A stretch of 64,000 nucleotides of DNA from Falsiroseomonas frigidaquae (lineage in GTDB: Bacteria; Pseudomonadota; Alphaproteobacteria; Acetobacterales; Acetobacteraceae), in assembly GCF_012163145.1 (NCBI RefSeq), contig NZ_JAAVTX010000006.1:434001-498000 (forward strand). Reading direction: 5' to 3'. This document shows positions 47,551 through 64,000 of the stretch, piece by piece. Each line of letters starts with the position of its first letter. Positions within the stretch are counted from its first letter, which is position 1. The translations under genes and the position numbers were made by a program. The notes beneath the pieces are model-generated. The model made no database searches and was not told where the DNA came from. It was given only the letters and a program-made list of their open reading frames with translations.

Positions 47551-48357
47551 ATGGACCTCGAAGCTGAATACAATTGCCGCGCCCGCGTGCCGGAATACCC
47601 GCAGATCGTCGCCGCTTGGCTGCGCGATGCCGCCGCCTGGCGCGAATCCTGCCCGCGCGCCGAACTCGACCTGCCCTATGGGGCGCGGGAGCGGGAGCGG
47701 CTGGACCTGTTCTGGCCGGATGAAGCGGCCCGCGACGCGCCGATCACCCTGTTCATCCATGGCGGCTACTGGCAGGCGCCGGGGCGGGAACGGATTTCCT
47801 TCTGCGCGCGCGGGCTGAACCTGCAGGGCGTGGCGGTGGCCCTGCCCTCCTATGATTTATGCCCGGAGGTGCCGCTGGCCAGCATCGTGGACCAGATGCG
47901 CGCGGCGGCCGCCATGCTGTACCGCCGCCATGGCCGCCGCCTGATGGCCGGCGGCCATTCCGCCGGCGGGCACCTGGCGGCGATGCTGCTGGCCACCGAC
48001 TGGCCGGCCCTGGACCCGGCCCTGCCGCCCGGGCTGGTCCATGCCGCCATGCCGGTCTCCGGCGTCTTCGAGCTGGACCCGCTGCGCCACACCAGCATCG
48101 GCGTCGGCCTGAAGCTGGACCGCGCGGAGGCCCGCCGCCTGTCGCCACGCTTCCTGCCCAGCCCGTCCCGCCCGCTGCATTGCGTGGTCGGCGGCGCCGA
48201 AAGCCCGGAGTTCATCCGCCAGAGCCGTGACATGGCGCAGGCCTGGGGCGGCACATGGGCGGCGGAGCCAGGGGCGGACCACTTCACCATCCTCGCCCCG
48301 CTGGCGGACCCCGCCAGCGGCATGGTGGCGGTGGCGAAAAGGCTTGCCACGGCCTGA
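47551..48357 (+). CDS. alpha/beta hydrolase, arylformamidase-like
   Basis: A 268-residue cytoplasmic hydrolase. FIHGGYWQAPGR near 67-78 carries the HGGYW oxyanion motif characteristic of the kynurenine formamidase branch. The nucleophile is in AGGHSAGGHLAAM near 133-145, and the catalytic His is in GADHFTIL near 245-252. A GTG at 47548 is immediately upstream and could be the start. Family and position suggest hydrolysis of an N-formyl or acyl arylamine such as N-formylkynurenine or N-formylanthranilate. That would feed the aromatic-CoA genes downstream; the link is inferred. The importer's box and promoter begin three bases after its stop. Confidence 0.82.
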   Translation: MDLEAEYNCRARVPEYPQIVAAWLRDAAAWRESCPRAELDLPYGARERERLDLFWPDEAARDAPITLFIHGGYWQAPGRERISFCARGLNLQGVAVALPSYDLCPEVPLASIVDQMRAAAAMLYRRHGRRLMAGGHSAGGHLAAMLLATDWPALDPALPPGLVHAAMPVSGVFELDPLRHTSIGVGLKLDRAEARRLSPRFLPSPSRPLHCVVGGAESPEFIRQSRDMAQAWGGTWAAEPGADHFTILAPLADPASGMVAVAKRLATA

Positions 48358-48359
48358 TG

Positions 48360-48372
48360 CTTGAAGCCTAAA
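48360..48372 (+). promoter_or_regulatory. MarR-type operator box 1, upstream of the aromatic-type importer
   Basis: CTTGAAGCCTAAA, identical to boxes 2 and 3 near the MarR operon. Its last bases begin a possible -10 (TAAAAT, 48369-48374), the same placement seen at box 2. A weak -35 TTGCCA lies at 48344-48349 with a 19-base spacer. The binding-protein ATG is 25 bases downstream. Confidence 0.6.
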
Positions 48373-48396
48373 ATATCTCGGGAGACTGGAGGGACG

Positions 48397-49599
48397 ATGA
48401 TGAACATCCAATTCGGCCGGCGCCACGCGCTCGGCCTCGCTGGTGGCGTGGCCTTGGGGGGCCTGGCCTCACCGCTGGTGGCGCGCGCGCAGGCGGCGCC
48501 GCTGAAGATCGGCCTGGTCGCGCTGGCCACCGGCCCGGCGGCGACGCTGGGGACGCATCTGCGGGATGGTTTCCAGCTCGGCATGCGCCACCTGGACGGC
48601 AAGCTCGGCGGCCGCGCGGCGGAGGTGATCCTGATCGATGACGAGCTGCGCCCGGATGCCGCCGTCACTAAGGTCCGCGCCGCGCTGGAACGCGACAAGG
48701 TGGATTTCGTGGTCGGCGTGGTGTTCTCCAACATCCTGGCCGCGATCATGCGCCCGGTGACGGACAACCAGACCTTCCTGATCTCGACCAATGCCGGCCC
48801 CTCCCCCTTCGCCGGCCGCGGCTGTAATCCGTTCTTCTTCGCCACCTCCTACGTCAACGACCAGAACCATGCGGTGATGGGCAAGGCGGCGCAGGATGCC
48901 GGCTATGGCCGCGTCATGCTGCTGGCGCCGAACTACCAGGCGGGCCGCGATTCGGTCGCCGGCTTCAAGTCCGAATACAAGGGCACGGTGGTGGACGAGA
49001 TGTTCACGCCGCTGACCCAGATGGATTTCTCCGCCGAGCTGGCGCGCATCGCCGCGGCGCGGCCGGATGCGATCTTCACCTTCATGCCGGGTGGCCTCGG
49101 CGTGAACCTGGTGCGGCAGTATCGCCAGGCGGGCCTTGCCAATATCCCGTTCCTGTCCGCCTTCACGGTGGACGAAGCCTCCCTGCCCGCGCAGGGCGAT
49201 GCCGCCATCGGCTTCCAGACCGGCACGAGCTGGACCCCCACCCTGCCGAATGAGCGCAACGCCCGCTTCGTGCGCGATTTCGAGGGCCAGTACAGCTACG
49301 TGCCCGCCAGCTACGCCGCCCATGCCTATGACGCGTCGATGCTGCTGGACAGCGCCATCCGCAAGACCGGTGGCAACCTCGCCGACAAGGGTGCGATGCG
49401 CACCGCCATCAAGGCGGCGGATTTCCAATCCGTGCGCGGCAACTTCGCCTTCGGCGCCAACCACTTCCCGGTGCAGGATTTCTGGCTCGCCAAGGTCGTC
49501 AAGCGCGATGACGGCAAGTTCCAGACCGAGCATGTCCGCAAAGTCTATGACAACGTGACCGACCCTTTTGCGGCGCAGTGCCGCATGCCGGCCGCCTGA
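48397..49599 (+). CDS. branched-chain-amino-acid-type ABC importer, substrate-binding protein
   Basis: A 400-residue periplasmic binding protein of the LivK/AmiC/aromatic-acid family. GRRHALGLAGGVALGGLASPLVARAQA is a signal peptide with twin Arg, cleaved near residue 33. KIGLVALATGPAATLGTHLRDGFQLGM and LIDDELRPDAAVTKVRAALERDKVDFVVG are diagnostic. Two tandem ATGs (48397, 48400) follow GGAGGG. It is the first gene of a complete five-gene importer. The shared operator with the aryl-CoA operon suggests an aromatic acid ligand rather than leucine; inferred. Confidence 0.9.
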   Translation: MMNIQFGRRHALGLAGGVALGGLASPLVARAQAAPLKIGLVALATGPAATLGTHLRDGFQLGMRHLDGKLGGRAAEVILIDDELRPDAAVTKVRAALERDKVDFVVGVVFSNILAAIMRPVTDNQTFLISTNAGPSPFAGRGCNPFFFATSYVNDQNHAVMGKAAQDAGYGRVMLLAPNYQAGRDSVAGFKSEYKGTVVDEMFTPLTQMDFSAELARIAAARPDAIFTFMPGGLGVNLVRQYRQAGLANIPFLSAFTVDEASLPAQGDAAIGFQTGTSWTPTLPNERNARFVRDFEGQYSYVPASYAAHAYDASMLLDSAIRKTGGNLADKGAMRTAIKAADFQSVRGNFAFGANHFPVQDFWLAKVVKRDDGKFQTEHVRKVYDNVTDPFAAQCRMPAA

Positions 49600-49612
49600 G
49601 GATACCGGCGGG

Positions 49613-50536
49613 ATGTCGCTGACTCTGCTGCTCGTCCAGGGCCTGAACGGGCTGCAACTCGGCATCCTGCTGTTTCTCATCGCCGCAGGGCTGACGCTGG
49701 TGTTCGGGGTGATGGATTTCATCAACCTGGCGCATGGCGTGCAGTACATGGTCGGCGCCTATCTCGCCGCCTATTTCGCGGCGCAGACCGGCAGCTTCTG
49801 GGCGGCCCTCGCCCTGGCGCTGCCGGCGGCGCTGGTGGTCGGACTGGTGCTGGAATTCCTGGTGTTCCGGCATTTGTATGACCGAGACCACATGGCGCAG
49901 GTGCTGGCCACCTTCGGCGTCATCCTGATCCTGAACGACGGGGTGAAGCTGCTGTTCGGCTCCGCGCCGTTGCAGGTGCCGATGCCGGCGGCGCTGACCG
50001 GCGGCGTGCCCATCATGGACGGGCTGCTGTATCCGCACTACCGCATCGCCATCATCGCCGGCGGGCTGGCAACCGCCGCGCTGCTGTGGTGGCTGGTGGA
50101 GCGCACCAAGGTCGGCATGCTGATCCGCGCCGGGGCCACCAACGCGCCGATGGTCGCCGCACTCGGCATCGATATCCGCCGGCTGTTCATGGTGGTCTTC
50201 GGCTTCGGCGCCATGCTGGCGGGCTTCGCCGGCGTGATGGCGGCGCCGATCCTGTCCGTGGAGCCGGGCATGGGCGACAACCTGCTGATCCTCGCCTTCG
50301 TCGTCATCGTCATCGGCGGCATTGGATCGGTCCGCGGCGCCTTCCTGGCGGCGCTGCTGGTCGGCCTGGTGGAGACGCTCGGGCGGTCGATGATGCCGGA
50401 TCTGATGCGCCTGGTGCTGGACCCTTCCGCCGCGCGGCAGGTGGGTGCGGCGCTGGCCTCGATGCTGATCTACATCGCCATGGCGGCGATCCTGGCCTTC
50501 CGCCCGGCCGGCCTGTTTCCCGTGCGCGCCGCCTGA
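49613..50536 (+). CDS. ABC importer permease, LivH type
   Basis: A 307-residue inner-membrane subunit with about eight hydrophobic segments. GLNGLQLGILLFLIAAGLTLVFGVMDFINLAHG near the N-terminus and FVVIVIGGIGSVRGAFLAALLVG near 240 are LivH hallmarks. ATG 49613 follows the binding-protein stop by 13 bases. The stop overlaps the next start in TGATG. It forms half of the import channel. Confidence 0.9.
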   Translation: MSLTLLLVQGLNGLQLGILLFLIAAGLTLVFGVMDFINLAHGVQYMVGAYLAAYFAAQTGSFWAALALALPAALVVGLVLEFLVFRHLYDRDHMAQVLATFGVILILNDGVKLLFGSAPLQVPMPAALTGGVPIMDGLLYPHYRIAIIAGGLATAALLWWLVERTKVGMLIRAGATNAPMVAALGIDIRRLFMVVFGFGAMLAGFAGVMAAPILSVEPGMGDNLLILAFVVIVIGGIGSVRGAFLAALLVGLVETLGRSMMPDLMRLVLDPSAARQVGAALASMLIYIAMAAILAFRPAGLFPVRAA

Positions 50537-51487
50537 TGCGCGAATTGGGACGAATACTGGGACGGGAATTGCCGGCGCTGCTGCTGCTGGGCGGCCTGGC
50601 CGCCGCGCCCTTCATCGGCTTCGGCGAGGGCTACATGCTGACGCTGCTGGCGCGCATGATGATCCTGGCCATGGCCGCCGTCTCGCTGTCCTTCATCGTG
50701 GCGGGCGCGGGGCTGGTCTCGCTCGGGCATGCGGCGACGCTGGGCTTCGGCGCCTATGCGGTGGTGATCCTGGACGATCTGCAGGTGGTCGATGCGCTGT
50801 TCGTGCTGCCGGCCGCCATCCTCGCCGCCGCGGGCTTCGCGCTGGTGACGGGGGCGGTCGCCATCCGCACCAGCGGGGTGAACTTCATCATGATCACCCT
50901 GGCCTTCGGGCAGATGGCCTTCTTCACCGCCAGCTCGCTGTCCGGCTATGGCGGCGATGACGGCTACACGCTGTACGCGCGAACCGAGGTGAATGGCGCG
51001 CGGCTGCTGGATGACCGGCTCGTCTTCCACTTCGTCTGTCTCGGCGCACTGGTCCTCACCTGGCTGCTCTGCCGCATGCTGCTGGCCTCCCGCTTCGGCC
51101 GCGTGCTGCGGGCGGTGCGCGGCAACCCGATGCGGGCGCAGGCGCTGGGCTTCTCGCCCTATCCCTATCGCCTGACCGCCTATGTCATCGCCGGCGCGCT
51201 GGGCGGCGCGGCGGGGTTCCTGTTCGCCAATGCGACGGAGTTCGTGGCGCCGGCCTATATCTCATGGCAACGCTCCGGCGAGTTGCTGTTCATGGTGATC
51301 CTGGGCGGGTTGTCCGGGCTGCATGGCGCGCTGCTGGGGGCGATCGGCTTCGTGCTGCTGGAGGAGTGGCTGTCCCATCAATGGGAGCATTGGCGCATCG
51401 CCTTCGGCGTGCTGCTGATCCTGGCCGTGCTGTTCCTGCCCGGAGGCCTGTCCGGCATCCCCGCGCAACTCGGCCGGATGCTGCGCC

Positions 51488-51495
<8 letters not shown>
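50536..51495 (+). CDS. ABC importer permease, LivM type
   Basis: A 319-residue partner permease. SFIVAGAGLVSLGHAATLGFGAYA near 52-75, VAIRTSGVNFIMITLAFGQM and the EAA-like RFGRVLRAVRGNPMRAQALGF segment identify LivM. About eight to nine membrane segments. It begins at the last base of the livH-type stop and ends overlapping the ATPase gene by eight bases. Confidence 0.9.
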
Positions 51496-52254
<759 letters not shown>

Positions 52255-52261
<7 letters not shown>

Positions 52262-52971
52262 GGCTGGAGAACCTGACCGCCGGCTATGGCGGCAGCCAGG
52301 TGCTGTTCGGCGTGGACCTGGAGATGAAGCCCGGCCAGGTGGTCACGCTGCTCGGCCGCAACGGCATGGGCAAGACCACCACCATCCGCGCCATCATGGG
52401 CCTGCTGCCCTCCGTCGGCGGGCGCATCTGGGGTGGGGAGGTGGTGGTGGACAACCGCGCCGTCGCCGGCCTGCCGCCGCATCGCCTGGCGCGCCAGGGC
52501 CTCGGCCTGGTGCCGGAGGGGCGGCAGGTCTTCCCGACCCTGACGGTGGAGGAAAACCTGCTCGCCACCGCCGCGCATCGCTTCGCCGGCGCGCCGCGCT
52601 GGACCCTGGCTGCGGTCTACGAGATGTTCCCCCGCCTGCGCGAACGCCGTCGCAACCCGGGCGCGAAGCTGTCAGGCGGCGAACAGCAGATGGTGGCGAT
52701 CGGCCGCGCGCTGATGACCAACCCGCGGCTGCTGATCCTGGACGAAGCAACGGAAGGCCTGGCGCCGCTGATCCGCGCCGAGATCTGGGCGGTGCTGGCG
52801 CGGCTGAAGGCGGAGGGGCAGTCGATCCTGCTGATCGACAAGAACCTCGCCGCCGTCTCCCGCCTCGCCGACCGGCATGTGGTGATCGAGAAGGGCCGCA
52901 CGGTCTGGACCGGCAGCAGCGCGGCGCTGGAGGCGGCGCCGGAGGTGCGGGACAGCTACCTGCATCTGTGA
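52255..52971 (+). CDS. ABC importer ATP-binding protein, LivF type
   Basis: A 238-residue ATPase. Walker A is GRNGMGKTT near 35-43, the signature is LSGGEQQMVAIGRAL, Walker B is LLILDEATEG. The usual switch His region reads LIDKNLAAVSRLAD, with Lys-Asn where many homologs have a His, a substitution also seen in some LivF proteins. It is the last gene of the importer operon, convergent with the LysR gene six bases away. Confidence 0.9.
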
Positions 52972-52977
52972 CGGCAG

Positions 52978-53874
52978 TTAGCGCGCCGCGAATTCCGCCG
53001 GCAGCACCGCCGCCAGGTGGTCATACACCGCGCGGAAGCGGCGCCCCTGGCGGACATCGGCATGCGCCACCAGCCAGACCGCGTCCTTCGGCGCAAATTC
53101 CGCCGCCACCAGCCGCCGCAGCCCGGACCGCGCGCCGATGCGCGCCTGCATGATGCCGATGCCGAGCCCCGCGCGGACCGCCGCATGCTGGCCGATCATG
53201 CTGTCGGAGCGATAGACGAAGCGCCAGGCCTCCACCGGCAGCCGCATCCGCTCCGAGGCGCGGCGGCCGAAGCCGTCGCGATCGAAGCCGACCATGCGGT
53301 GGCGCGCCAGATCGGCCAGCGTCTCCGGCACGCCATGCCGCGCGAGGTAGGTCTCACTGGCGAAGCATCCGTATTCTACCGAGCCGACCTGGCGCCCAAC
53401 CAGGTCCGGCTGCTCCGGTCGGGAGAAACGGATGGCGATGTCCGCGTCCCGGCGCAGCAGATTCTCGATCCGGCTGCTGGGCAGCATCTCGATGGTGATG
53501 CCGGGATTCGCCTCCATGAAGGGCTGCAGCAGCTCGGGCAGGCGCTCCACGCCGAAGGGCTCGCTGGTGGTGATGCGGACGGTTCCGGTCGGTGAATCCA
53601 GGCGGCCGGCCATGGCGACGCCGAGCGCCTGGGCCGCCTGTTCCAGCCCGGCGGCGTGGTCCAGCAGCGCCAAGGCGCGGTCCGTGGGCCGCAGGCCCTG
53701 CGGCGTCCGGTCGAACAGCGCCTCCCCCACCCGGTCCTCCAGCGCGCGGATCTGCCGGCCGACGGTGGGCTGGGTGAGCTTCAGCTCGATGGCGGCGGCG
53801 GAGAGGCTGCCGGTCCGCATCACCGCGACGAAGGCCTGCAGCAGGCTCCAATCCAGCGGTGTGGGGGTGCTCAT
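52978..53874 (-). CDS. LysR family transcriptional regulator
   Basis: A 298-residue regulator. The winged helix-turn-helix is within residues 8-65 (LLQAFVAVMRTGSLSAAAIELKLTQPTVGRQIRALED), followed by a linker helix and a periplasmic-binding-like effector domain (TVRITTSEPFGVERLPELL near 97). It sits convergent to the importer and divergent from a small secreted-protein gene (130-base gap), which is its most likely adjacent target by LysR habit. It is not obviously tied to the aromatic operon. Confidence 0.88.
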   Translation of the reverse strand: MSTPTPLDWSLLQAFVAVMRTGSLSAAAIELKLTQPTVGRQIRALEDRVGEALFDRTPQGLRPTDRALALLDHAAGLEQAAQALGVAMAGRLDSPTGTVRITTSEPFGVERLPELLQPFMEANPGITIEMLPSSRIENLLRRDADIAIRFSRPEQPDLVGRQVGSVEYGCFASETYLARHGVPETLADLARHRMVGFDRDGFGRRASERMRLPVEAWRFVYRSDSMIGQHAAVRAGLGIGIMQARIGARSGLRRLVAAEFAPKDAVWLVAHADVRQGRRFRAVYDHLAAVLPAEFAAR

Positions 53875-54003
53875 GGCCCGATGCATTCCTGCATGCCGGG
53901 CGAACGACAATCGGCAATCCCGCAGGATGCGCGCCGGCGGCATCTTCCTGGCACCGGCGGCGACATCGGGTCGCCCGCCCCCCTCGAAGGAAAGATCGCA
54001 GAC

Positions 54004-54327
54004 ATGGCCACCACCTTCCGCAGCCTCCTCGCCGTCACCGCCCTGCTGGCCGGGATCGGCACCCAGGGCGCCTTCGCGCAGGAGATGTTTCCCCGCACCG
54101 TCGGTTCCGGCGAGAGCGCCGAGATCGTCTATGGCCCCGGCCCGCATGGCAATATCCTTGGCGGCGGTGCCGTCACGGTGCAGCAGGTGACGGGCGACGA
54201 GACGATCGTCACCTACCTGGACGCGCAATTCGTGCAGCAGGCCCAGCCGGGCACCGTGCCGAGCGTGCTCAGCGTCGGCGAGAACAGCCAGCGCGTCGAT
54301 CTGCCCGCCGCCAGCACGCGTGGCTGA
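54004..54327 (+). CDS. small secreted protein of unknown function
   Basis: A 107-residue protein with a clear signal peptide (FRSLLAVTALLAGIGTQGAFA, cleavage near residue 25). The mature part of about 82 residues is rich in Gly, Val, Thr and Gln with no cysteine, and looks like beta-strand-forming sequence (GGGAVTVQQVTGDETIVTYLDAQF). ATG 54004 follows GAAGGAAAG. It is divergent from the LysR gene. I do not recognise a family; a periplasmic protein is likely. Confidence 0.65.
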   Translation: MATTFRSLLAVTALLAGIGTQGAFAQEMFPRTVGSGESAEIVYGPGPHGNILGGGAVTVQQVTGDETIVTYLDAQFVQQAQPGTVPSVLSVGENSQRVDLPAASTRG

Positions 54328-54338
54328 TGCCGGCCAAG

Positions 54339-54370
54339 GCCGCGGGCGGCACTATTCCGCCGCCCGCGGC
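54339..54370. terminator. bidirectional terminator hairpin
   Basis: GCCGCGGGCGGC (54339-54350) and GCCGCCCGCGGC (54359-54370) form a perfect 12-bp stem around ACTATTCC. The loop contains the TAG stop of the convergent fused oxygenase gene, so the stem includes its last codons. Confidence 0.7.
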
Positions 54371-56655
54371 GCATGGCTCGCGGGCCGCGCCTTCAGCTTC
54401 AGCTCCCGCAGCTCCGCCTGGTCCTTCGCCGCGTTGCGCAGTGCGGCGTCCTGGCCCCAGCGGTATTGCGGCGGGCAGGCGACGTCGCGCACGCCGTATT
54501 GCGCGGCGGCATGCAGGGTGAAGAAGGGGTCGGTCAGATGCGGCCGCCCGAGCGCCACCAGATCCGCCCGCCCCGCGGCGATGATGGTGTTCACCTGGTC
54601 GGCGCTGGTGATGTTGCCGACGCACATCACGGCAACCCCGGCCTCATTGCGGATCATGTCCGCCCAGGGCAGCTGGAACATGCGGCCATAGACCGGGCTG
54701 GCATCCGCCACCGTCTGGCCGGTCGAGACATCCACCAGATCCACGCCCGCCGCGACGAAGGCGCGCGCGATGGCGAGGCAATCGGCGTCCGATAGCCCCC
54801 CTTCCGCCCAGTCGGTGGCGGAGATCCGCACCGACATAGGCTTGCCCGCCGGCCAGACGGCGCGCAGCGCGGCGAAGACCTCCAGCGGATAGCGCAGGCG
54901 GTTCGCGATCGGGCCGCCATAGTCGTCGCTGCGCGTGTTGGTCAGCGGCGAGAGGAAACTGGCCAGCAAATAGCCGTGGGCGCAGTGCAGCTCCAGCATA
55001 TCGAAGCCGCAGACGAGGCCGCGTTCGGCGGCCGCGACGAAATCCGCCGTCACCGCATCCATGTCCTCCCGCGTCATCTCGCGGGGGGTCTGGCTGTGCT
55101 TGTAGTAGGGGATGGGGCTGGCGGAGAGGATCGGCCAGGCGCCGGCCTCCAGCGGCTGGTCCATGCCCTCCCACATCAGTTTCGTCGCGCCCTTGCGCCC
55201 GGCATGGCCGAGTTGCAGGCAGATCTTTGCCGCGGATGTCGCGTGGACCAGGCCGACGATCCGCGTCCAGGCCGCCTGCTGCGCGTCGTTCCACAACCCG
55301 GCGCAGCCGGGGGTGATGCGCGCCTCGGCGGAGACGCAGGTCATCTCCGTGAAGACCAGCCCGGCGCCGCCCATGGCGCGCGCGCCGTAATGCGCCAGGT
55401 GGAAGTCGCCCGGCACGCCGTTCCCAGCGGAATACATGCACATGGGCGAGACAACGACACGGTTCGCCAGGGTCATGTCGCGCAGCGCGAGCGGCTGGAA
55501 CATCGGCGGGCGCTTGGGGTCGCCGCCCACCTCCTCCGCCACCGCGCGCTGGGTCTCCGCCACGAAATCCGGCGCACGCAGCGCCAGGTTGTCCCAGGTG
55601 ATGGCCTTGCTGCGCGTCATCACGCCGAAGGCGAAGCGAGTTGGGAAGAAATCCCAGAAGCGCCGCACATGCTCGAACCAGACGAGGGAGACATTGGCGG
55701 CGTGCTGCGTCTTCTCCACATCCTCCCGCCGCCCTGTCTCGAAGGCGTGCAGCGCGGAGGCGACGTTGCTTTCGGCCCGAAAAGCCTGGTGCAGCGCGAT
55801 GGCATCCTCCATCGCCAGCTTGGTGCCGGAGCCGATGGAGAAATGCGCGCTGGCCTTGGCATCGCCCAGCAGCACGACGTTGCCACGCACCCAGCGGGCG
55901 CATTTGATGGTGGGGAAGCGGCGCCACTGGCTGCGGTTGGTGATCAGGCGGTGGCCTTGCAATTCCTCGGCGAAGACGCCTTCGAGGAAGGCGGCGCTGG
56001 CCGCCTCGTCCATGCCTTCCAGCCCGGCCTTGGCGAAGGTTTCGGGGTCCGTCTCCAGCACCCAGGTGCTGGCGCCGGCCTCGTACTGGTAGCAATGGGC
56101 GATGAAGATGCCGTGCGGCGTCTCCTTGAAGAAGAAGGTGAAGGCATCGAAGGGGCGCGTGCTGCCCATCCAGGCGAAGCGGTTGGGGCGGAGGTCAACC
56201 TCCGGCTGGAAATGCTCGGCAAAGCGTTCCCGGATCGGGGAGTTGATGCCGTCGGCGGCGACGACCAGGTCCGCATCCGGGAAATCCTCCGGCGTCGCCT
56301 CCCGCCGGAATTCCAGCTCCACGCCCAGCTCGCGGGCGCGTGCGGCCAGCAGCATCAGCAAAGTGCGGCGCGAGCAGCCGCAGAAGCCATTGCCGCCGAC
56401 GCGGTGTTCCCTGCCCTTGGCGACGATGGCGATGTCGTCCCAATAGGCGAAGCTCTCGGTGATGGCGCGGTAGCTCGGCTCATCCGCCTGCCGAAAAGCG
56501 TCCAGCGTCGCGTCGCTGAACACCACGCCGAAGCCGAAGGTGTCCTCCGCCTGGTTCCGCTCCACCACCGTGATGCGGGAGGCCGGGAAATCCCGCTTCA
56601 TCAGGATGGCGAAGTACAGGCCCGCCGGGCCGCCACCGATCACCGCGATCCGCAT
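54352..56655 (-). CDS. bifunctional aryl-CoA monooxygenase/reductase (ACMR / salicylyl-CoA 5-hydroxylase family)
   Basis: A 767-residue fusion. Residues about 1-385 are an FAD monooxygenase: [12 protein letters not shown] at the N-terminus, [12 protein letters not shown], and [22 protein letters not shown] near 285-306. From about 395 an old-yellow-enzyme FMN domain follows: [28 protein letters not shown] and [20 protein letters not shown]. This order is that of 2-aminobenzoyl-CoA monooxygenase/reductase and of salicylyl-CoA 5-hydroxylase/oxidoreductase. It would hydroxylate an aryl-CoA ring and, in the first case, reduce it to a non-aromatic enamine. GTG 56658 is an alternative start; CCGAGG precedes ATG 56655. 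It is under box 2 and a good sigma-70-like promoter. Confidence 0.88.
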
Positions 56656-56685
56656 CACCTCGGCCCCCTGGTCGCTCTCTGGAAT

Positions 56686-56714
56686 AGTTTAGGCTTCAAG
56701 GAATGAGGGTTCAA
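56686..56714 (-). promoter_or_regulatory. promoter of the fused aryl-CoA oxygenase
   Basis: On the minus strand TTGAAC (56714-56709) and TAAACT (56691-56686) are separated by 17 bases, a good housekeeping-type match. The predicted start is near 56679, about 24 bases before the ATG. The MarR-type box 2 covers part of the spacer and the -10, so a bound repressor would block polymerase. Confidence 0.6.
56688..56700 (-). promoter_or_regulatory. MarR-type operator box 2
   Basis: CTTGAAGCCTAAA on the minus strand, identical to box 1 and in the same orientation to its downstream gene, with the -10 hexamer beginning at the same position. The core CTT-G-AAG is a short inverted repeat. Confidence 0.62.
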
Positions 56715-56743
56715 CCGGATGTTGCGCAAGGCCTCGCCGATGT

Positions 56744-56756
56744 TTTAGGCTTCAAG
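56744..56756 (-). promoter_or_regulatory. MarR-type operator box 3, directly before the SDR-MarR operon
   Basis: The same 13-mer, here reading TTTAGGCTTCAAG on the plus strand and ending four bases before the SDR ATG. With flanks it shares 18 bases with box 1 (TTTTAGGCTTCAAGCATC). Its position would let the downstream MarR protein repress its own operon. Confidence 0.62.
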
Positions 56757-56760
56757 CATC

Positions 56761-57495
56761 ATGCAGATCGGCACGCTCCAGGGCAGGACGGCATTGGTGA
56801 CCGGCGGCGGCAGCGGCATCGGCGCCGCCTGCGCCGCGGCGCTGACGGCAGCCGGGGCGCGGGTGACGGTGCTGGGGCGGCGTGAGGCACCCTTGCAGGC
56901 GCGGGTGGCGGCCGGGGAGGCTGCGTCCCTCATCGCCGCCGATATCAACGCCCTGCCCGCCTTGCCGGCCTTCGACATCCTGCTGCATGCCGCCGGCGCC
57001 GCCGAAAGCGCGCCCTTCCTGAAATCGGATGCCGCGCTGTTCGACCGCATGTGGCGCACCAATGTGCTGGGCGCCGTCGCGGTGGCCCAGGCGGTGCTGC
57101 CGGGGATGATCGTGGCGGGCTTCGGGCGGGTGGTGATGGTGGCCTCCACCGCCAGCCTGAAGGGCTACCCCTATGTCACGGCCTATGCCGCCGCCAAGCA
57201 CGGGTTGCTCGGCCTGGTGCGGTCGCTGGCGCAGGAAGTGGCGACCAAAGGCGTGACCGTGAACGCCATCTGCCCCGGCTTCACCGAGACCGATATCGTG
57301 GCGGGCTCCGTCGCCCGCATCATGCAGAAGACCGGCCGCGACGAAGCGGCCGCCCGCGCCGAACTCGCGAAGCACAACCCGCAGTGCCGCTTGGTGCAGC
57401 CTTCGGAAGTGGCCGCCGCGGCGCTTGCGCTCTGCTGGCCCGGCAGCGGCGCCATCAACGGCCAGGCCATCGCGGTGGATGGGGGCGAGACATGA
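56761..57495 (+). CDS. short-chain dehydrogenase/reductase (aryl-CoA pathway operon)
   Basis: A 244-residue SDR: TGGGSGIG near 13-20, DILLHAAGAAES near 73-84 in place of NNAG, and the active site SLKGYPYVTAYAAAK near 130-144. By operon logic it oxidises the hydroxyacyl-CoA or alicyclic alcohol made after ring reduction and hydration. The start ATG 56761 fits the family, but only box 3 lies upstream and no Shine-Dalgarno is seen, so the message may be leaderless. It is coupled (ATGA) to the MarR gene. Confidence 0.87.
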   Translation: MQIGTLQGRTALVTGGGSGIGAACAAALTAAGARVTVLGRREAPLQARVAAGEAASLIAADINALPALPAFDILLHAAGAAESAPFLKSDAALFDRMWRTNVLGAVAVAQAVLPGMIVAGFGRVVMVASTASLKGYPYVTAYAAAKHGLLGLVRSLAQEVATKGVTVNAICPGFTETDIVAGSVARIMQKTGRDEAAARAELAKHNPQCRLVQPSEVAAAALALCWPGSGAINGQAIAVDGGET

Positions 57496-57989
57496 GCGTG
57501 GATGCCGAAACCGCCCTCGCCCATGAGCCCCCCGGCCACAAGGATGAGCTGCGCCTCTGGCTGCGGATGCTGACCTGCACGACGCTGATCGAAAGCGAGA
57601 TCCGCACCCGCCTGCGCCGGGACTTCGACACCACCCTGCCCCGCTTCGACCTGATGGCGGCGCTGGACCGCGCGCCGGCGGGCCTGTCGCTCGGCGAGGT
57701 CTCCCGCCACATGATGGTGAGCAATGGCAACGTCACCGGCGTGGCGGCGCGGCTGGAGGCCGAAGGGCTGGTCGAACGCCGCGCCCGGCCGGGCGACCGC
57801 CGCGCCCAGCTTCTGCGCCTGACGCCCAAGGGCCGCCGCGAATTCGCCCGGCAATCGGCCGCGCATGAGGGCTGGATCGCGGAGCTTCTGGCCGGCGTGA
57901 CGGCGGTGGAGCGCGGCGCGCTGTTCCGCCTGCTCGGCCACGCGAAAATCTCGGTCCGCAACGCACTTCCGCCGGAGCCCAGCGCATGA
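57492..57989 (+). CDS. MarR family transcriptional regulator
   Basis: A 165-residue dimeric winged-helix regulator. [66 protein letters not shown] (about 51-117, in parts) shows the recognition helix and the D-R wing tip. Such regulators often sense aryl-CoA thioesters in benzoate, hydroxycinnamate or anthranilate gene sets. It lies inside the operon between SDR and enoyl-CoA hydratase with ATGA overlaps on both sides. It is the likely binder of boxes 1-3; inferred from proximity and autoregulatory placement. Confidence 0.88.
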
Positions 57990-58804
57990 TCACCGGCCCT
58001 CTCTCAGCCTATGACGCCCAGCATGTGAAGCTGGAGGTGGCGGGCAGCGTCGCGACGCTCACGCTGAACCGGCCGGAACGCAAGAACCCGCTGACCTTCG
58101 ACAGCTACGCGGAGCTGACAGCGATCTTCCGCGCCGCGGTGCATGACGATCAGGTGCGCGCCTTCGTCGTCACCGGCGCCGGCGGCAATTTCTGTTCGGG
58201 CGGCGATGTGCACGAGATCATCGGGCCGCTGCTGGAGCGCGACACGCGCGGGCTGATGGCCTTCACCGCGATGACCGGCGACCTGGTGAAGGCGATGCGC
58301 GCCTGCCCGCAGCCGATCCTGGCGGCGGTGGATGGCATCTGCGCGGGTGCCGGCGCCATCATCGCCATGGCGTCGGATTTGCGGCTCGGCACGGCACGGA
58401 CCAAGGTGGCCTTCCTGTTCAACCGCGTGGGGCTGGCCGGCTGCGACATGGGCGCCTGCGCCATCCTGCCGCGCCTCATCGGCCAGGGGCGCGCGAGCGA
58501 GCTGCTTTATCTCGGCCGCTCCCTCGGCGGGGAGGAAGGCCTGGCCTGGGGCTTCTTCAATGCGCTGCATGCGCCGGAGGCGGTGTTGGAGGCAACGACG
58601 GAGATGGCGCGCGGCATCGCGGAGGGTCCGGCCTTCGCGCACGCCATGACCAAGCGCATGCTGGCCATGGAATGGGCCATGTCCATCGAACAGGCGATCG
58701 AGGCCGAGGCGGTGGCCCAGGCGCTGTGCATGACCACGCAGGATTTCCGGCGCGCCTTCGACGCCTTCGTGGCGAAGCAGCGCCCTGTGTTCAGAGGCGA
58801 CTGA
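57986..58804 (+). CDS. enoyl-CoA hydratase/isomerase family protein
   Basis: A 272-residue crotonase-fold protein. [16 protein letters not shown] near 15-30, the oxyanion-hole [14 protein letters not shown] near 65-78, and [20 protein letters not shown] near 115-134 are clear. The usual catalytic Glu positions are not plain in [17 protein letters not shown], so it may be an isomerase, hydrolase or atypical hydratase. It would act on the alicyclic or ring-opened acyl-CoA. It is coupled to MarR and to the dehydrogenase, whose ATG shares its last base. Confidence 0.86.
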
Positions 58805-59967
58805 TGGCCGACACCTCCTTCCTCGACTGGCCCTTCTTCGAACCGCGCCACCGCGACTGGGCGGCGGAGGTGGAAGCCTGGGCGGCGCGCCATGCGGAGG
58901 CGCTGTCCGATGAACACGACGCCGATGCCAGCGTCATCCGCCTGGCCCACGCCATGGGCGAGGCCGGGCTGCTGCGCGTGCCCTGCCCGGCGGATGGCGT
59001 GCTGGATGTGCGGGCGCTGTGCATCGCGCGCGACATCCTGGCGCGGCATAGCGGGTTGGCGGATTTCGCCTTCGCCATGCAGGGCCTCGGCACCGGTCCG
59101 GTAACCCTGTTCGGCAGCGCCGCGCAACGCGACCGCGTGCTGGCCGGTGCGCGGGCTGGCACGGCGCTGGCCGCCTTTGCGCTGAGCGAGCCGGAGGCGG
59201 GCAGCGATGTTTCGGCGCTCGCGCTGACCGCGACACCCGACGGCAACGGCCACTACCGGCTGAACGGCCAAAAGACCTGGATCAGCAATGGCGGCATCGC
59301 CGCCACCTATGTGGTCTTCGCCCGCACCGGGGAGGCGCCCGGCGCCAAGGGGCTTTCAGCCTTTCTCGTGCCCGCCAATGCGCCCGGCCTGACGGTCGCG
59401 GAACGCATCGAGGTCACGGCGCCGCACCCCCTCGCCCGCCTGGATTTGGCCGATGTGCGCGTGGCGGCGGAGGACATGCTCGGCAAGCCCGGCGAGGGTT
59501 TTCGGGTGGCGATGTCCACCCTCGACGTCTTCCGTGCCAGCGTCGGCGCCGCCGCGCTGGGCTTCGCCCGCCGTGCGCTCGACATGACGGTCGAGCATGC
59601 GGCGACCCGAAAGATCTTCGGCGGCACGCTATTCGACCAGCAGATGTCGCAGGCCGCCATTGCCGACAGCGCGACGGATGTCGAAGCCTCCGCCCTGCTG
59701 GTCTATCGCGCCGCCTGGCTGAAGGATTCCGGCACGCCCCGCGTGACGCGAGAGGCCTCCATGGCCAAGCTGCACGCCACCGAAGCCGCGCAACGCTGCG
59801 CCGACCGCAACGTCCAGATCCATGGCGGGCTCGGCGTCACCAAGGGCCATAAGGCCGAAGAACTCTACCGGGAGGTCCGGGCGCTTCGCGTTTACGAAGG
59901 CGCCTCCGAGATTCAGCGCGTGGTGATTGCCCGCGCCGAACGCCAGCTTCGCACGTCACTCGACTAG
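58804..59967 (+). CDS. acyl-CoA dehydrogenase family protein
   Basis: A 387-residue FAD enzyme that introduces a 2,3 double bond into an acyl-Co[16 protein letters not shown] near 129-143 and [18 protein letters not shown] near 157-174 are the flavin and substrate segments. The catalytic Glu is in [16 protein letters not shown] near 362-377. Its ATG begins at the last base of the hydratase stop. In the proposed pathway it acts on a non-aromatic, cyclic or opened CoA ester after the fused enzyme has acted. Confidence 0.88.
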
Positions 59968-59984
59968 AACGAGGGATGGGTGCA

Positions 59985-61580
59985 ATGCGCGACAGCTTCT
60001 GCGAGGACCGGCTGCCGCCGCCGGACCAGTGGCCGGACTTTCTTCTCGACCGGCCGGAGTTCCAGTATCCGCCGCGCCTGAACTGCGCGGTGGAATTGCT
60101 TGACCGCAACCTGCAGCGCGGCCGCGGCGACCACCCGGCGCTGGTCACGCCGGCGGAGACGCTGAGCTACGCGCAGCTCGCCGATCGCGTCGATCGCATC
60201 GCCCGCGTGCTGGTGGAGCGGCTCGGCCTGGTGCCGGGCAACCGGGTGCTGCTGCGCTCGGCCAACAACGCCTGGATGGTCGCCGCCTATTTTGCCGTGC
60301 TGAAGGCCGGCGGCGTGGTGGTCGCCTCCATGCCGCTGCTGCGCGCGAAAGAGCTCGGGCAAATGCTGCGGAAGGCGCGCATCACGCATGCGCTGTGTGA
60401 TGCGCGGCTGGCGGATGAACTTCGCAAGGCGGATGGGCCGGACCTTCGCCACCTGGTCACCTGGGGCGATGGCGTGCTGGAGGAGATGGTCGCAGAGGCC
60501 GCGCCCGGCTTCCCCGCCTGCGACACCGCCGCCGACGACATCTGCCTGATCGGCTTCACCAGCGGCTCCACCGGCGAACCCAAGGGCACGCTGCATTTCC
60601 ACCGCGACATGCTGGCGATCTGCGATGGTTATGCGAGGCAGGTGCTGCGGCCCGAACCCTCCGACATCTTCATCGGCTCGCCGCCGCTGGCCTTCACCTT
60701 CGGCCTCGGCGGGCTGGTGCTGTTCCCTTTCCGCGTCGGCGCCACCGCCGTGCTGCTGGAACGCGCCTCGCCGGAGGAACTGCCGACCGCCATCGCCCGC
60801 CACCGCGCCACCATCTGCTTCACCGCCCCCACCGCCTATCGCGCCATGGCCGCCCATGCCGCGCAGCACGATCTCTCCTCACTTCGCAAATGCGTCTCTG
60901 CGGGCGAAACGCTGCCCCGGCCCATCTACGACGCCTGGCTCGCCGCCACTGGCCTGAAGCTGATGGACGGCATCGGCGCGACGGAAATGCTGCACATCTT
61001 CATCAGCGCGCGGGAGGACCAGATCCGCCCCGGCGCCACCGGCCTGCCCGTTCCCGGCTACATCGCGCGCGTGGTGGACGACCAGGGCGCGGAGGTGCCG
61101 CGCGGCACGCCCGGGCGGCTCGCCGTGAAGGGTCCCACCGGCTGCCGCTACCTCGATGACCCGCGCCAGGCGCAATACGTCCAGAACGGCTGGAACATCA
61201 CCGGCGACACCTACATCCAGGATGCGGACGGCTATTTCTGGTACCAGGCGCGCAACGACGACATGATCGTCTCCGCCGGCTACAACATCGCGGGGCCGGA
61301 GGTGGAGGCGGCGCTGCTGACGCATCCCGCCGTCGCCGAATGCGGCGTGGTCGCCGCGCCGGATGCGGAGCGTGGCCGGGTGGTGCGGGCCTATGTGGTG
61401 CCGAAGCCCGGCTTTCCGCCGGATGCGGCGCTGACCCGCGCCCTGCAGGACCATGTGAAGGCGGAGATCGCGCCCTACAAATACCCGCGCAGCATCGTCT
61501 TCGTCGAGGCCCTGCCGCGCACGGAAACCGGCAAGCTGCAGCGCTTCGCCCTGCGCCGCCAGGCCGAAGCCGGCGCATGA
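59985..61580 (+). CDS. aryl-CoA ligase, 2-aminobenzoate-CoA ligase-like
   Basis: A 531-residue adenylate-forming ligase. The N-terminus DRLPPPDQWPDFLLDRPEFQYPPRLN is characteristic of benzoate/2-aminobenzoate-CoA ligases. The P-loop is IGFTSGSTGEPKGTLHFH near 183-200, the A5 motif is DGIGATEMLHIF, the A7 motif is ITGDTYIQDADGYFWYQARND and the catalytic Lys is in RTETGKLQRFALR. It activates the entering aromatic acid to its CoA ester. ATG 59985 (GAGGG nine bases upstream) is preferred to ATG 59976. It lies 17 bases after the dehydrogenase gene. Confidence 0.88.
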   Translation: MRDSFCEDRLPPPDQWPDFLLDRPEFQYPPRLNCAVELLDRNLQRGRGDHPALVTPAETLSYAQLADRVDRIARVLVERLGLVPGNRVLLRSANNAWMVAAYFAVLKAGGVVVASMPLLRAKELGQMLRKARITHALCDARLADELRKADGPDLRHLVTWGDGVLEEMVAEAAPGFPACDTAADDICLIGFTSGSTGEPKGTLHFHRDMLAICDGYARQVLRPEPSDIFIGSPPLAFTFGLGGLVLFPFRVGATAVLLERASPEELPTAIARHRATICFTAPTAYRAMAAHAAQHDLSSLRKCVSAGETLPRPIYDAWLAATGLKLMDGIGATEMLHIFISAREDQIRPGATGLPVPGYIARVVDDQGAEVPRGTPGRLAVKGPTGCRYLDDPRQAQYVQNGWNITGDTYIQDADGYFWYQARNDDMIVSAGYNIAGPEVEAALLTHPAVAECGVVAAPDAERGRVVRAYVVPKPGFPPDAALTRALQDHVKAEIAPYKYPRSIVFVEALPRTETGKLQRFALRRQAEAGA

Positions 61581-62044
61581 CCCGCCCCACCCCCCTGCCC
61601 TTCGAGAAGCTGCCGCCCCGCGCCTTCCACGCGCCCGCGCGCATCCGCTTCGGCGATTGCGACCCGGCCGGCATCGTCTTCTTCCCGACCTGGTTCGCGC
61701 TGGCCAATGCCGCGGTGGAGGATTTCTTCCGCGACGAGCTGGGCCTGGATTTCCACGCTTTGCACGCGACCCGCCGCATCGGCACCGGCTTCGCCCATGC
61801 GGAGGCCGATTTCTTCGCCCCCGGGCTGATGGGCGATGCCGTGCTGCTGACGCCGCTGATCACCCGGATCGGCGGCGCCAGCTACGGTTTCACCATGCAT
61901 GTGCATCGCGGCGCGGCGGAGCTGCTGCGGATGCAGCTGGTGACTGCCACCACGAACCTCGATACCCGCCGCCCGGTGCCGATCCCGGATGATCTGCGCG
62001 CGGCGCTGGCCCGCTACCAGGAACGCTGCACCGATGGCCGATAG
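61577..62044 (+). CDS. acyl-CoA thioesterase (4-hydroxybenzoyl-CoA thioesterase-like hotdog)
   Basis: A 155-residue hotdog-fold thioesterase. RFGDCDPAGIVFFPTWF near 24-40 contains the Asp of the Pseudomonas 4-hydroxybenzoyl-CoA thioesterase type. It could release a free acid at the end of the pathway or relieve CoA trapping by stalled aryl-CoA. It overlaps the ligase gene in an ATGA and the RidA-like gene by 11 bases. Confidence 0.87.
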   Translation: MTRPTPLPFEKLPPRAFHAPARIRFGDCDPAGIVFFPTWFALANAAVEDFFRDELGLDFHALHATRRIGTGFAHAEADFFAPGLMGDAVLLTPLITRIGGASYGFTMHVHRGAAELLRMQLVTATTNLDTRRPVPIPDDLRAALARYQERCTDGR

Positions 62045-62438
62045 CCCGCTGACCGCCCTGCAGCCCTTCGGCTGGCCGCCGCCGCGCGGCTATTCCAACG
62101 GCATGATGGGCCGCGGCCGGGTGGTGCTGGTCGGCGGGCAGATCGGCTGGGACACGCAGGGCCGCTTCCCCGAGGGTTTCGTGCCCCAGGCGCGCCAGGC
62201 ACTGGCCAATATCCTGGCCGTGCTGGCGGAAGCCGGCGGCGGGCCGGAACATATCGGCCGGCTGACGTGGTATGTGGTGGACATGGCCGAATACCGCGCC
62301 AGCCTGGCGGAACTCGGCCCCGCCTACCGCGCCGTGATGGGACGCAACTTCCCGGCCATGGCGCTGGTGCAGGTGGTGGCACTGGTCGAGCCGGAGGCCC
62401 GGCTCGAGATCGAGGCCACGGCCATCCTGCCCGACTGA
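62034..62438 (+). CDS. RidA (YjgF/YER057c) family protein lacking the usual active-site arginine
   Basis: A 134-residue chorismate-mutase-like-fold protein. [24 protein letters not shown] near 34-57 and [12 protein letters not shown] at the C-terminus identify the family. Canonical RidA imine deaminases have PAR in the strand before this end; here the position reads FPAMALVQV, with Met for the catalytic Arg. It probably belongs to a non-archetypal Rid subfamily found in catabolic operons. It may bind or process the enamine produced from 2-aminobenzoyl-CoA. It is the last gene of the operon. Confidence 0.85.
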
Positions 62439-62676: not shown

Positions 62677-62853
62677 CTATCTGGGCGGCCTGCGCCGGGA
62701 ATCCAGCATCACGGGCGGCGGCGCAAGGGATCGTTCCGCGGCGCAGGAACACACCACGGTGCCATCCGCCAGCTGGTTCGGCATGGTCGGCTCCGCGCAA
62801 TGCGGGCATTCGACCAGTTCCAACCTTGGCTCAGGCGGCGGCGGGCGGCTCAT
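62677..62853 (-). CDS. small zinc-ribbon-like protein
   Basis: A 58-residue frame, [10 protein letters not shown]..., with a CPHC pair near 16-19 and CSC near 36-38, spaced as in small zinc ribbons. It ends with a basic, proline-rich tail (RRRPPR). No clear Shine-Dalgarno is seen. The Cys pattern is the main support. Function unknown; a rubredoxin-like or nucleic-acid-binding ribbon is possible. Confidence 0.45.
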
Positions 62854-63000
62854 GCGTCTGTCCTGCCGGGGCAGCCTTGCGCCCGGGCGGGCTTGCCGGC
62901 GGAGGGTGTGGTTGGCATGTTCCGCCACCTCCCACCCTTCGGCGTGATGGCGTCGTCCCGGCATCGGTGGCCGGCGACAGAGACAGGCAAGGATACAGGC

Positions 63001-64000
63001 ATGGCCAAGATCAAGGTTAAGACCCCCGTCGTCGAGATGGATGGGGATGAGATGACGCGCATCATCTGGGGGTTCATCAAGGACCGCCTGATCCTGCCCT
63101 ACCTCGACATCGACCTGAAGTACTACGACCTGGGCGTGGAATACCGCGACCAGACCGATGACCAGGTGACGGTGGACGCGGCCAACGCGACCAAGCAGTA
63201 CGGCGTCGGCGTGAAGTGCGCGACCATCACCCCGGACGAGGCGCGGGTGAAGGAGTTCAACCTCAAGAAGATGTGGCGCAGCCCGAACGGCACCATCCGC
63301 AACATCCTCGACGGCACCATCTTCCGCGAGCCGATCATCTGCCAGAACGTGCCGCGCCTGGTGCCGCATTGGTCCAAGCCGATCGTCGTAGGCCGCCACG
63401 CCTATGGCGACATCTACCGCGCGGTGGAGATGAAGGTGCCGGGCGCCGGTACGGTGAAGATGACCTACACCCCGGAAGGCGGCGAGCCGCAGGAAGTGGG
63501 CGAGTTCGTCTTCAAGGATGCCGGCGTGTTCATGGGCCAGCACAACCTCAATCGTTCGATCGAGGGCTTTGCCCGGGCGTCGTTCAACTACGGCCTGGCG
63601 CGGAAGTATTCCGTGTATTTCAGCCACAAGAACACGATCCTGAAGGCCTATGACGGCAACTTCAAGGACATCTTCAAGTCCATCTTCGATGCGGAATTCG
63701 CCGCGAAGTTCAAGGAAGCCGGCCTGGTCTACGAAGACCGCCTGATCGATGACATGGTTGCCTCCGCGCTCAAGTGGGAAGGCGGCTATATCTGGGCCTG
63801 CAAGAACTACGACGGCGACGTGCAGTCCGACATCGTGGCGCAGGGTTTCGGCAGCCTCGGCCTGATGACCTCCGTGCTGCTGTCCCCGGACGGCAACACG
63901 GTGGAATCCGAGGCCGCGCACGGCACGGTGACGCGCCACTATCGCGAGCACCAGAAGGGCCGCGAGACCAGCACGAACCCGATCGCCTCGATCTTCGCCT
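63001..64000 (+). CDS. icd: NADP-dependent isocitrate dehydrogenase (partial, C-terminus off the window)
   Basis: The first 333 codons of an enzyme normally about 405 residues long; it oxidatively decarboxylates isocitrate to 2-oxoglutarate in the TCA cycle. [26 protein letters not shown] near 11-36, the isocitrate-binding [24 protein letters not shown] near 90-113, [34 protein letters not shown] near 241-274 (in parts) and [16 protein letters not shown] near 306-321 are those of the eukaryotic-type homodimeric IDH common in Alphaproteobacteria. ATG 63001 follows AAGGATACAGGC. It is monocistronic as far as visible. Confidence 0.94.

Follow-up and report, generated by a model that had tools for sequence, protein, structure and literature searches.

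Three copies of a candidate MarR operator link an importer, a fused aryl-CoA oxygenase and a dehydrogenase/MarR operon in Falsiroseomonas frigidaquae

The current work concerns a stretch of 64,000 nucleotides from Falsiroseomonas frigidaquae (contig NZ_JAAVTX010000006.1, positions 434,001 to 498,000; this whole stretch is referred to as the window), in which an identical 13-bp box is located upstream of a set of five importer genes, of a gene for a fused monooxygenase/reductase (here named the oxygenase), and of an operon that starts with an SDR-family dehydrogenase gene and includes a MarR-family gene. The three boxes are very probably the operators of this MarR protein (57492-57989), which would act as a repressor of the importer, of the oxygenase and of its own operon, and which would be released by an aryl-CoA compound, probably 2-aminobenzoyl-CoA. 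The sites, their rarity, partial symmetry and register with respect to promoter elements, their conservation and their association with MarR genes were computed as described below.

Results

Occurrence of the box in the window and in the genome

A search of the window for the 13-mer CTTGAAGCCTAAA retrieved exact copies at 48360-48372 (+), 56688-56700 (-) and 56744-56756 (-) and no others, in agreement with the first-pass annotation of this DNA, which had been made from the letters alone. When up to two mismatches were allowed the window still held three copies, compared to 0.20 expected from dinucleotide shuffles, and none of 100 dinucleotide shuffles of the window reached three copies of the 13-mer. 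Across the 6.08 Mb genome the exact copies are the three in the window only (0.02 being expected from base composition), with one additional place at one mismatch; the annotation had proposed such a genome-wide search and had named a 13-mer common across the genome outside promoters as evidence against its view. Boxes 1 and 3 have 19 bases in common (not 18, as had been counted earlier), and box 2 shares just the 13 bases with either.

Architecture of the proposed operators and promoters

The positions of the three operators and of the associated promoter elements are as follows.

48357..48376, + strand: operator 1 (importer), a 20-bp imperfect palindrome ATGCTTGAAGCCTAAAATAT with 6 of 10 pairs complementary, which encloses the 13-mer at 48360-48372
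56684..56703, - strand: operator 2 (over the oxygenase promoter), TTCCTTGAAGCCTAAACTAT, 5 of 10 pairs complementary
56740..56759, - strand: operator 3 (over the promoter of the dehydrogenase/MarR operon), ATGCTTGAAGCCTAAAACAT, 7 of 10 pairs complementary
48344..48374, + strand: tentative, putative importer promoter, TTGCCA (48344-48349), 19-bp spacer, TAAAAT (48369-48374) inside operator 1
56686..56714, - strand: oxygenase promoter, TTGAAC (56714-56709), 17-bp spacer, TAAACT (56691-56686) inside operator 2, with conserved spacing
56722..56751, + strand: SDR-MarR operon promoter, TTGCGC (56722-56727) followed at 17 or 18 bp by TTAGGC or TAGGCT inside operator 3

The anatomy of the site was deduced from 169 sites in 97 loci, with 150 distinct sites being used for pair counts. 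The consensus of this family of sites is approximately ATNYTTNAAGCYTAAANYAT, and the 13-mer represents the core of a 20-bp imperfect palindrome. At the flank pairs -4/15, -2/13 and -1/12, complementary bases occur with a frequency that none of 2000 shuffles attained (kinship uncorrected), and such covariation of the flanks as a palindrome is as expected for a site to which a dimer would bind. In locus L227 the 20-bp palindrome is perfect, ATAGTTTAAGCTTAAACTAT, and in L110 the 12-bp core is. Among four loci from outside the class (L230, L232, L235 and L236) three hold a site with at most one mismatch.

Operator 1 ends 20 bp before the first ATG of the importer (48397). The hexamers TAAAAT and TAAACT indeed have the same starting base within boxes 1 and 2, as had been noticed in the first-pass annotation, and box 3 is read in the sense opposite to its gene, which is not a contradiction since the box is imperfectly palindromic. 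No promoter was returned by a simple sigma-70 scan at the importer site or at the oxygenase/SDR site, and the -35 and -10 elements were assigned because their spacing is conserved in relatives. On the oxygenase side, 77 of 96 loci have a TTG that precedes the box by 15 or 16 bases, and in 79 of 96 the box contains TAAANT, with a spacer to the TTG of 17 or 18 bp. On the SDR side, TTG is located at -22 in 36 of 47 loci and the -10 hexamer again falls inside the box, in a register that differs from that of the oxygenase side. The promoter assignment is weaker for the importer than for the oxygenase and SDR sides. From these positions, a bound dimer would cover the -10 hexamers of both divergent promoters.

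Four bases separate the 13-mer over the SDR promoter from the start codon of the SDR gene (56744-56763), and no obvious ribosome-binding site was seen there; the mRNA of the SDR operon may be leaderless or nearly so.

Conservation of the box at the same genes in relatives

The search for the oxygenase covered 200 family genomes (59 matches at E 1e-100), 385 genomes from the class (69 matches at E 1e-200) and 398 from the phylum (70 matches at E 1e-150), and the best 80 of 304 named loci were taken. The mapped set consisted of 121 loci (the window, 40 regions and these best 80 of 304), or 106 after 15 duplicates had been dropped. A box was scored when TTNAAGCNTNAA occurred with at most one mismatch within 200 bp upstream of a gene; the counts include the window, and related genomes do not constitute independent samples.

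Of 105 oxygenase genes, 97 had the box in this upstream interval, as did 92 of 101 SDR genes (this being the same intergenic region) and 15 of 18 importers, in all 15 cases without mismatch. Dinucleotide shuffles of the 97 site-bearing oxygenase windows gave a mean of 1.7 hits and a maximum of 4 (kinship uncorrected). The box was absent upstream of the genes inside the operon, i.e. MarR (0/95), enoyl-CoA hydratase (0/81), acyl-CoA dehydrogenase (0/67), thioesterase (0/22) and Rid (0/98), and likewise upstream of LivH (0/18), LivM (0/17), LivG (0/24), LivF (0/28), a lipase gene (0/15), the reading frame X described below (0/13) and LysR (0/3); it precedes the ligase gene in 3 of 85 loci. The conservation of the box in related genomes, which the annotation had put forward as a check, is therefore established at both the importer and the oxygenase, and these figures support its view that one regulatory site links the importer, the oxygenase and the MarR operon.

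Within the 200 family genomes, the pattern TTSAAGCYTAAA was furthermore recovered from 38 of the 59 that carry the oxygenase as opposed to 23 of the 141 that lack it (p = 6e-11), a difference that is not seen for the reversed-pattern control (16/59 with versus 44/141 without, p = 0.6).

Association between the box and the MarR gene

The MarR protein matches PF12802 with 48.2 bits (cut-off 27) and PF01047 with 43.5 bits (cut-off 24.6), and its predicted structure has a MarR fold. Its association with the box was assessed in 54 genomes of the class or phylum for which an oxygenase upstream region was available, a box being allowed at most one mismatch. A close MarR homologue was defined as one of at least 99 bits, a cut-off that was chosen after the hits had been seen and under which G444, with a hit of 43.5 bits, was counted as being without; 46 of the 54 genomes have such a homologue and 8 do not. 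The oxygenase box is present in 32 of the 46 genomes with a close MarR homologue and in none of the 8 without one (Fisher p = 3e-4). When counted per genus the corresponding figures are 20 of 32 and 0 of 5 (p = 0.014), one mixed genus having been counted as MarR-bearing.

Among the best MarR loci of oxygenase-bearing genomes 27 of 30 hold a site, compared to a mean of 4.6 and a maximum of 12 in shuffles, with some of these sites being the same intergenic sites as in the oxygenase counts. In several genomes of family f171 the MarR gene is positioned between the ligase and the importer and is flanked by boxes on both sides (L259, L261-L265). In a set of 10 genomes, four are without a MarR hit (G154, G103, G010 and G183), and the first three of these were examined for a box. 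Within the own family, in G154 the cluster is intact and neither a MarR gene nor a box was found, and G103, a fragmented assembly, yielded neither a MarR hit nor a box. In 141 MarR rows, some of which come from the same genome, the recognition-helix residues M74, V75, G78, N79 and T81 (P0001 numbering) are at least 99% conserved. The annotation had proposed the MarR protein as the regulator concerned, and the palindromic covariation of the flanks, the sites in the MarR loci and the absence of the box upstream of the oxygenase in the 8 genomes without a close homologue together make this protein the best candidate for binding the box.

Genes of the window

The genes surrounding the three boxes are listed below.

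48397..49599, + strand: substrate-binding protein of the importer (Peripla_BP_6), best solved relative 4evq
49568..52971, + strand: permeases and ATPases of the importer, LivH/UrtB-, LivM/UrtC-, LivG/UrtD- and LivF/UrtE-like
52978..54228, - strand: LysR-type regulator, between the importer and the oxygenase
54352..56655, - strand: fused FAD monooxygenase and old-yellow-enzyme reductase, NF006101, 2-aminobenzoyl-CoA monooxygenase/reductase type
56761..57495, + strand: SDR-family dehydrogenase, first gene of the operon
57492..57989, + strand: MarR-family regulator, the proposed repressor, whose start overlaps the SDR stop (ATGA)
57986..58804, + strand: enoyl-CoA hydratase family protein, NF006107 over cut-off
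58801..59967, + strand: acyl-CoA dehydrogenase family protein
59976..61580, + strand: benzoate-CoA ligase family protein, proposed 2-aminobenzoate-CoA ligase (TIGR02262, 387.6 bits, cut-off 375.25)
61577..62044, + strand: 4HBT-type thioesterase
61989..62438, + strand: Rid-family (enamine/imine deaminase-like) protein

The oxygenase carries PF01494 and PF00724 on one protein and is 96% identical to its F. tokyonensis counterpart. The features of a pathway cluster that are present comprise this fused monooxygenase/reductase, an aryl-CoA ligase and genes of the beta-oxidation type (enoyl-CoA hydratase, acyl-CoA dehydrogenase and SDR), and the gene set corresponds to the aerobic 2-aminobenzoyl-CoA pathway (PMC4539516).

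Some minor points were recorded alongside. The LysR-type frame (52978-54228) holds about 127 residues ahead of the DNA-binding domain, and its start is probably wrong. The reading frame X (62677-63951, - strand), located beside the operon, matches nothing in Pfam or NCBIfam, and homologues of it are situated at the corresponding position in a number of Falsiroseomonas/Roseomonas loci. Several oxygenase matches from the class and phylum searches, in G449, G886, G749 and others, are listed with one internal in-frame stop, often TGA.

Sites away from the cluster

Sites outside the cluster were collected at 21 places in oxygenase-bearing genomes of the family, two of which share a contig with the oxygenase. 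Four of these sites precede Liv-type importers on other contigs, the binding protein being 74% identical in L064 and 41-43% identical in L291, L293 and L294, and a further one precedes a ligase gene (L295); the box therefore goes with genes that have moved. As a control, 10 loci (L036-L039, L043-L046, L062 and L063) from the 23 genomes that bear a site and lack the oxygenase were inspected, and these contain no window genes except for a weak ATPase match in L039.

In two Roseicella loci, L073 (1644-3674; operator 2811-2822) and L074, and also in L162 and L166, the operator is situated between divergent genes for a tryptophan 2,3-dioxygenase and a kynureninase-like protein. The Roseicella dioxygenase scores 374.6 bits, slightly under the NCBIfam cut-off of 390.7 and above the Pfam cut-off, and the kynureninase-like call derives from PF22580 and PF00266, NCBIfam having given none. 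This operator position would tie tryptophan breakdown to the anthranilate-CoA regulon. Two further dioxygenase-bearing loci have no box before the dioxygenase. A search of the own genome for a tryptophan dioxygenase found none, which fits a reliance on import.

An operator was also seen before an indolepyruvate-ferredoxin-oxidoreductase-like gene in L051, L053, L286, L288 and L296, and the first four of these, not L296, have in addition a divergent gene for a family-5 substrate-binding protein; this pairing was seen post hoc, the query having been taken from L053. In L058, L059 and L289 sites are located near weaker family-5 homologues.

Among the sites of the own genome, the one-mismatch sites C14, C15, C16 and C19 were considered as regulon members and rejected, given that the reversed-pattern control is commoner (18 versus 7 places). 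All four lie inside open frames of at least 100 residues, although in GC-rich DNA this carries little weight. C15 in addition falls just before a possible gene start, and the frame that would begin there matches a ribonucleotide-reductase-type domain and does not belong to this pathway.

Evaluation of the proposed regulation and its alternatives

Several observations weigh against the proposed control by MarR. Within the own genome, sites with at most one mismatch show no excess over the reversed pattern: the 13-mer occurs at 4 places and its reversed-pattern control at 3, and TTSAAGCYTAAA occurs at 7 places compared to 18 for its control. The weight therefore rests on the exact copies only. 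The palindrome is imperfect, because the core pairs 2/9 and 4/7 are complementary in just 15% and 25% of the 150 distinct sites, which is under the shuffle mean, and because the pairs -3/14 and -5/16 show no excess of complementarity over shuffles. The 19-bp spacer of the importer promoter is unusual; TTGC with this spacer is seen at the importer in several loci. Three of the 18 importers (L075, L078 and L161) are without a box even though their loci have MarR and oxygenase boxes. Of the distant genomes with a close MarR homologue, 14 of 46 are without an oxygenase box, and G010, in which no MarR homologue was detected, has nevertheless kept a box with one mismatch. Finally, no obvious partner gene accompanies 7 of the 21 off-cluster sites, and the case of L052 is unclear.

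The box might alternatively be bound by another regulator, for example the LysR-type protein (52978-54228), with MarR controlling something else. The location of the LysR-type gene between the importer and the oxygenase and the frequent control of aromatic operons by LysR proteins are in keeping with this, yet a LysR homologue (>60% identity) occurs in 5 of 121 loci as opposed to boxes at 97 of 105 oxygenase promoters, no oxygenase box was found in the 8 genomes without a close MarR homologue, and the placement over the -10 suits a repressor rather than a LysR activator. The LysR protein was rejected as the binder on its distribution, and this alternative is considered very unlikely. It is likewise considered very unlikely that the box is merely a conserved promoter element, consisting of spacer and -10, without a dedicated regulator. 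The fixed register of the -10 hexamer inside the box and the incomplete symmetry of the core would be explained in this manner, but register and strand differ between the divergent promoters, the outer flanks co-vary as a palindrome, and a plain promoter element would be common whereas the genome has 3 copies only; a promoter element alone was rejected on flank covariation and register. That the three copies arose by chance, or by recent duplication of one promoter, has a negligible probability: the 19 bases shared by boxes 1 and 3 could be taken to indicate duplication, but box 2 has just 13 bases in common with the other two, each box is separately conserved at orthologous genes, and three exact copies were found where 0.02 are expected per genome, on which ground chance was rejected.

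A different type of alternative retains the operator and the MarR protein and assumes that the substrate and ligand are salicylate and salicylyl-CoA instead of anthranilate. In its favour, the oxygenase passes NF006101, the model for a bifunctional salicylyl-CoA 5-hydroxylase/oxidoreductase, with 1126.5 bits at a cut-off of 1078. On the other hand, the Rid-type enamine/imine deaminase of the operon suits an amino substrate, the two Roseicella loci place the box between genes of an anthranilate-making route, and the gene set reportedly matches the 2-aminobenzoate clusters of Azoarcus evansii. Salicylate is thus judged unlikely; anthranilate is favoured because of the Rid gene and the Roseicella loci, and is most likely the aromatic acid that would be imported and degraded.

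Proposed mechanism and its implications

For the MarR-based circuit, we infer physical binding of the protein to its sites, repression rather than activation, and the nature of the ligand. A MarR dimer on the 20-bp palindrome would cover the -10 hexamers of the importer, oxygenase and own-operon promoters and would thereby keep RNA polymerase off all three. Upon entry of the substrate, the ligase of the operon would generate a CoA thioester, most likely 2-aminobenzoyl-CoA, which would bind MarR and cause its release from the DNA, so that uptake and breakdown would rise together. 2-Aminobenzoyl-CoA is the presumed natural inducer because the ligase lies in the operon that MarR would control.

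On a wider scale, and with slightly more speaking for this than against it, a MarR subfamily with a near-invariant recognition helix and a 20-bp palindrome over the -10 may govern a Pseudomonadota-wide regulon sensing 2-aminobenzoyl-CoA, in which the pathway genes stay and the supply module, controlled through the same operator, is exchanged between lineages. Depending on the lineage, this module would consist of a Liv-type importer, of a tryptophan dioxygenase and a kynureninase-like enzyme, or of an indolepyruvate-oxidoreductase-like enzyme together with a family-5 binding protein. If true, this would be the first time that a regulator is described for the aerobic anthranilate-CoA route, which follows on from the degradation of tryptophan and auxin in soil bacteria and plant-associated bacteria. 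The analysis specifies both the protein and the 20-bp site and lists predicted targets across dozens of loci, and the regulation is therefore directly testable by gel shift; the protein is also a candidate biosensor for anthranilyl-CoA.

Comparison with known systems

The kind of system is well known, while the member, the operator and its spread appear to be new; the control circuit seems genuine and belongs to a familiar type. Searches of the open-licence literature yielded neither a described operator nor a described regulator for the aerobic anthranilate-CoA route. Those literature matches to the operator letters that were inspected proved to be cloning primers with a HindIII site, and a match for MarR together with 2-aminobenzoyl-CoA was a text match to 'marrow'. 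The cluster described by Schuhle et al. in 2001 for A. evansii is said to encode, in addition, a MarR-like protein, a Rid-like protein and an ABC binding protein, the MarR-like gene reportedly being named there without its operator or targets having been found.

The aerobic 2-aminobenzoyl-CoA pathway of Azoarcus evansii has in common with the present cluster the CoA ligase, the fused monooxygenase/reductase and genes of the beta-oxidation type (PMC4539516). Several MarR repressors of aromatic-acid pathways, CouR among them, are released by aryl-CoA compounds (PMC5487221, PMC4737184). The box of CouR from Rhodococcus jostii RHA1 is given as cATTGA-5 bp-TCAATg over the -35 (PMC4737184), unlike TTNAAGCNTNAA over the -10 in the current work, and the present box does not fit the CouR pattern. 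MbdR of Azoarcus sp. CIB resembles the proposed MarR repressor in that it represses an aryl-CoA pathway, is released by an aryl-CoA and uses palindromic operators over promoter elements, but it belongs to the TetR family, recognizes ATACN10GTAT and serves the anaerobic 3-methylbenzoate pathway (PMC4424350). IadR and IacR of auxin breakdown are likewise MarR proteins at aromatic catabolic loci, and the iad route ends in anthranilate; they differ in binding indole-3-acetic acid itself (PMC9613470).

Among solved chains, 3boq, a MarR protein from Silicibacter pomeroyi, is listed without a named ligand or operator. The MarR protein of the window has a weak similarity to CouR (phmmer E 0.0011 for 5cyv and 7.7e-6 for 6c28, another CouR entry), and the IadR/IacR-type regulators among the solved chains are distant relatives only, e.g. 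7kfo (E 1.4e-6), which we take to be one of them.

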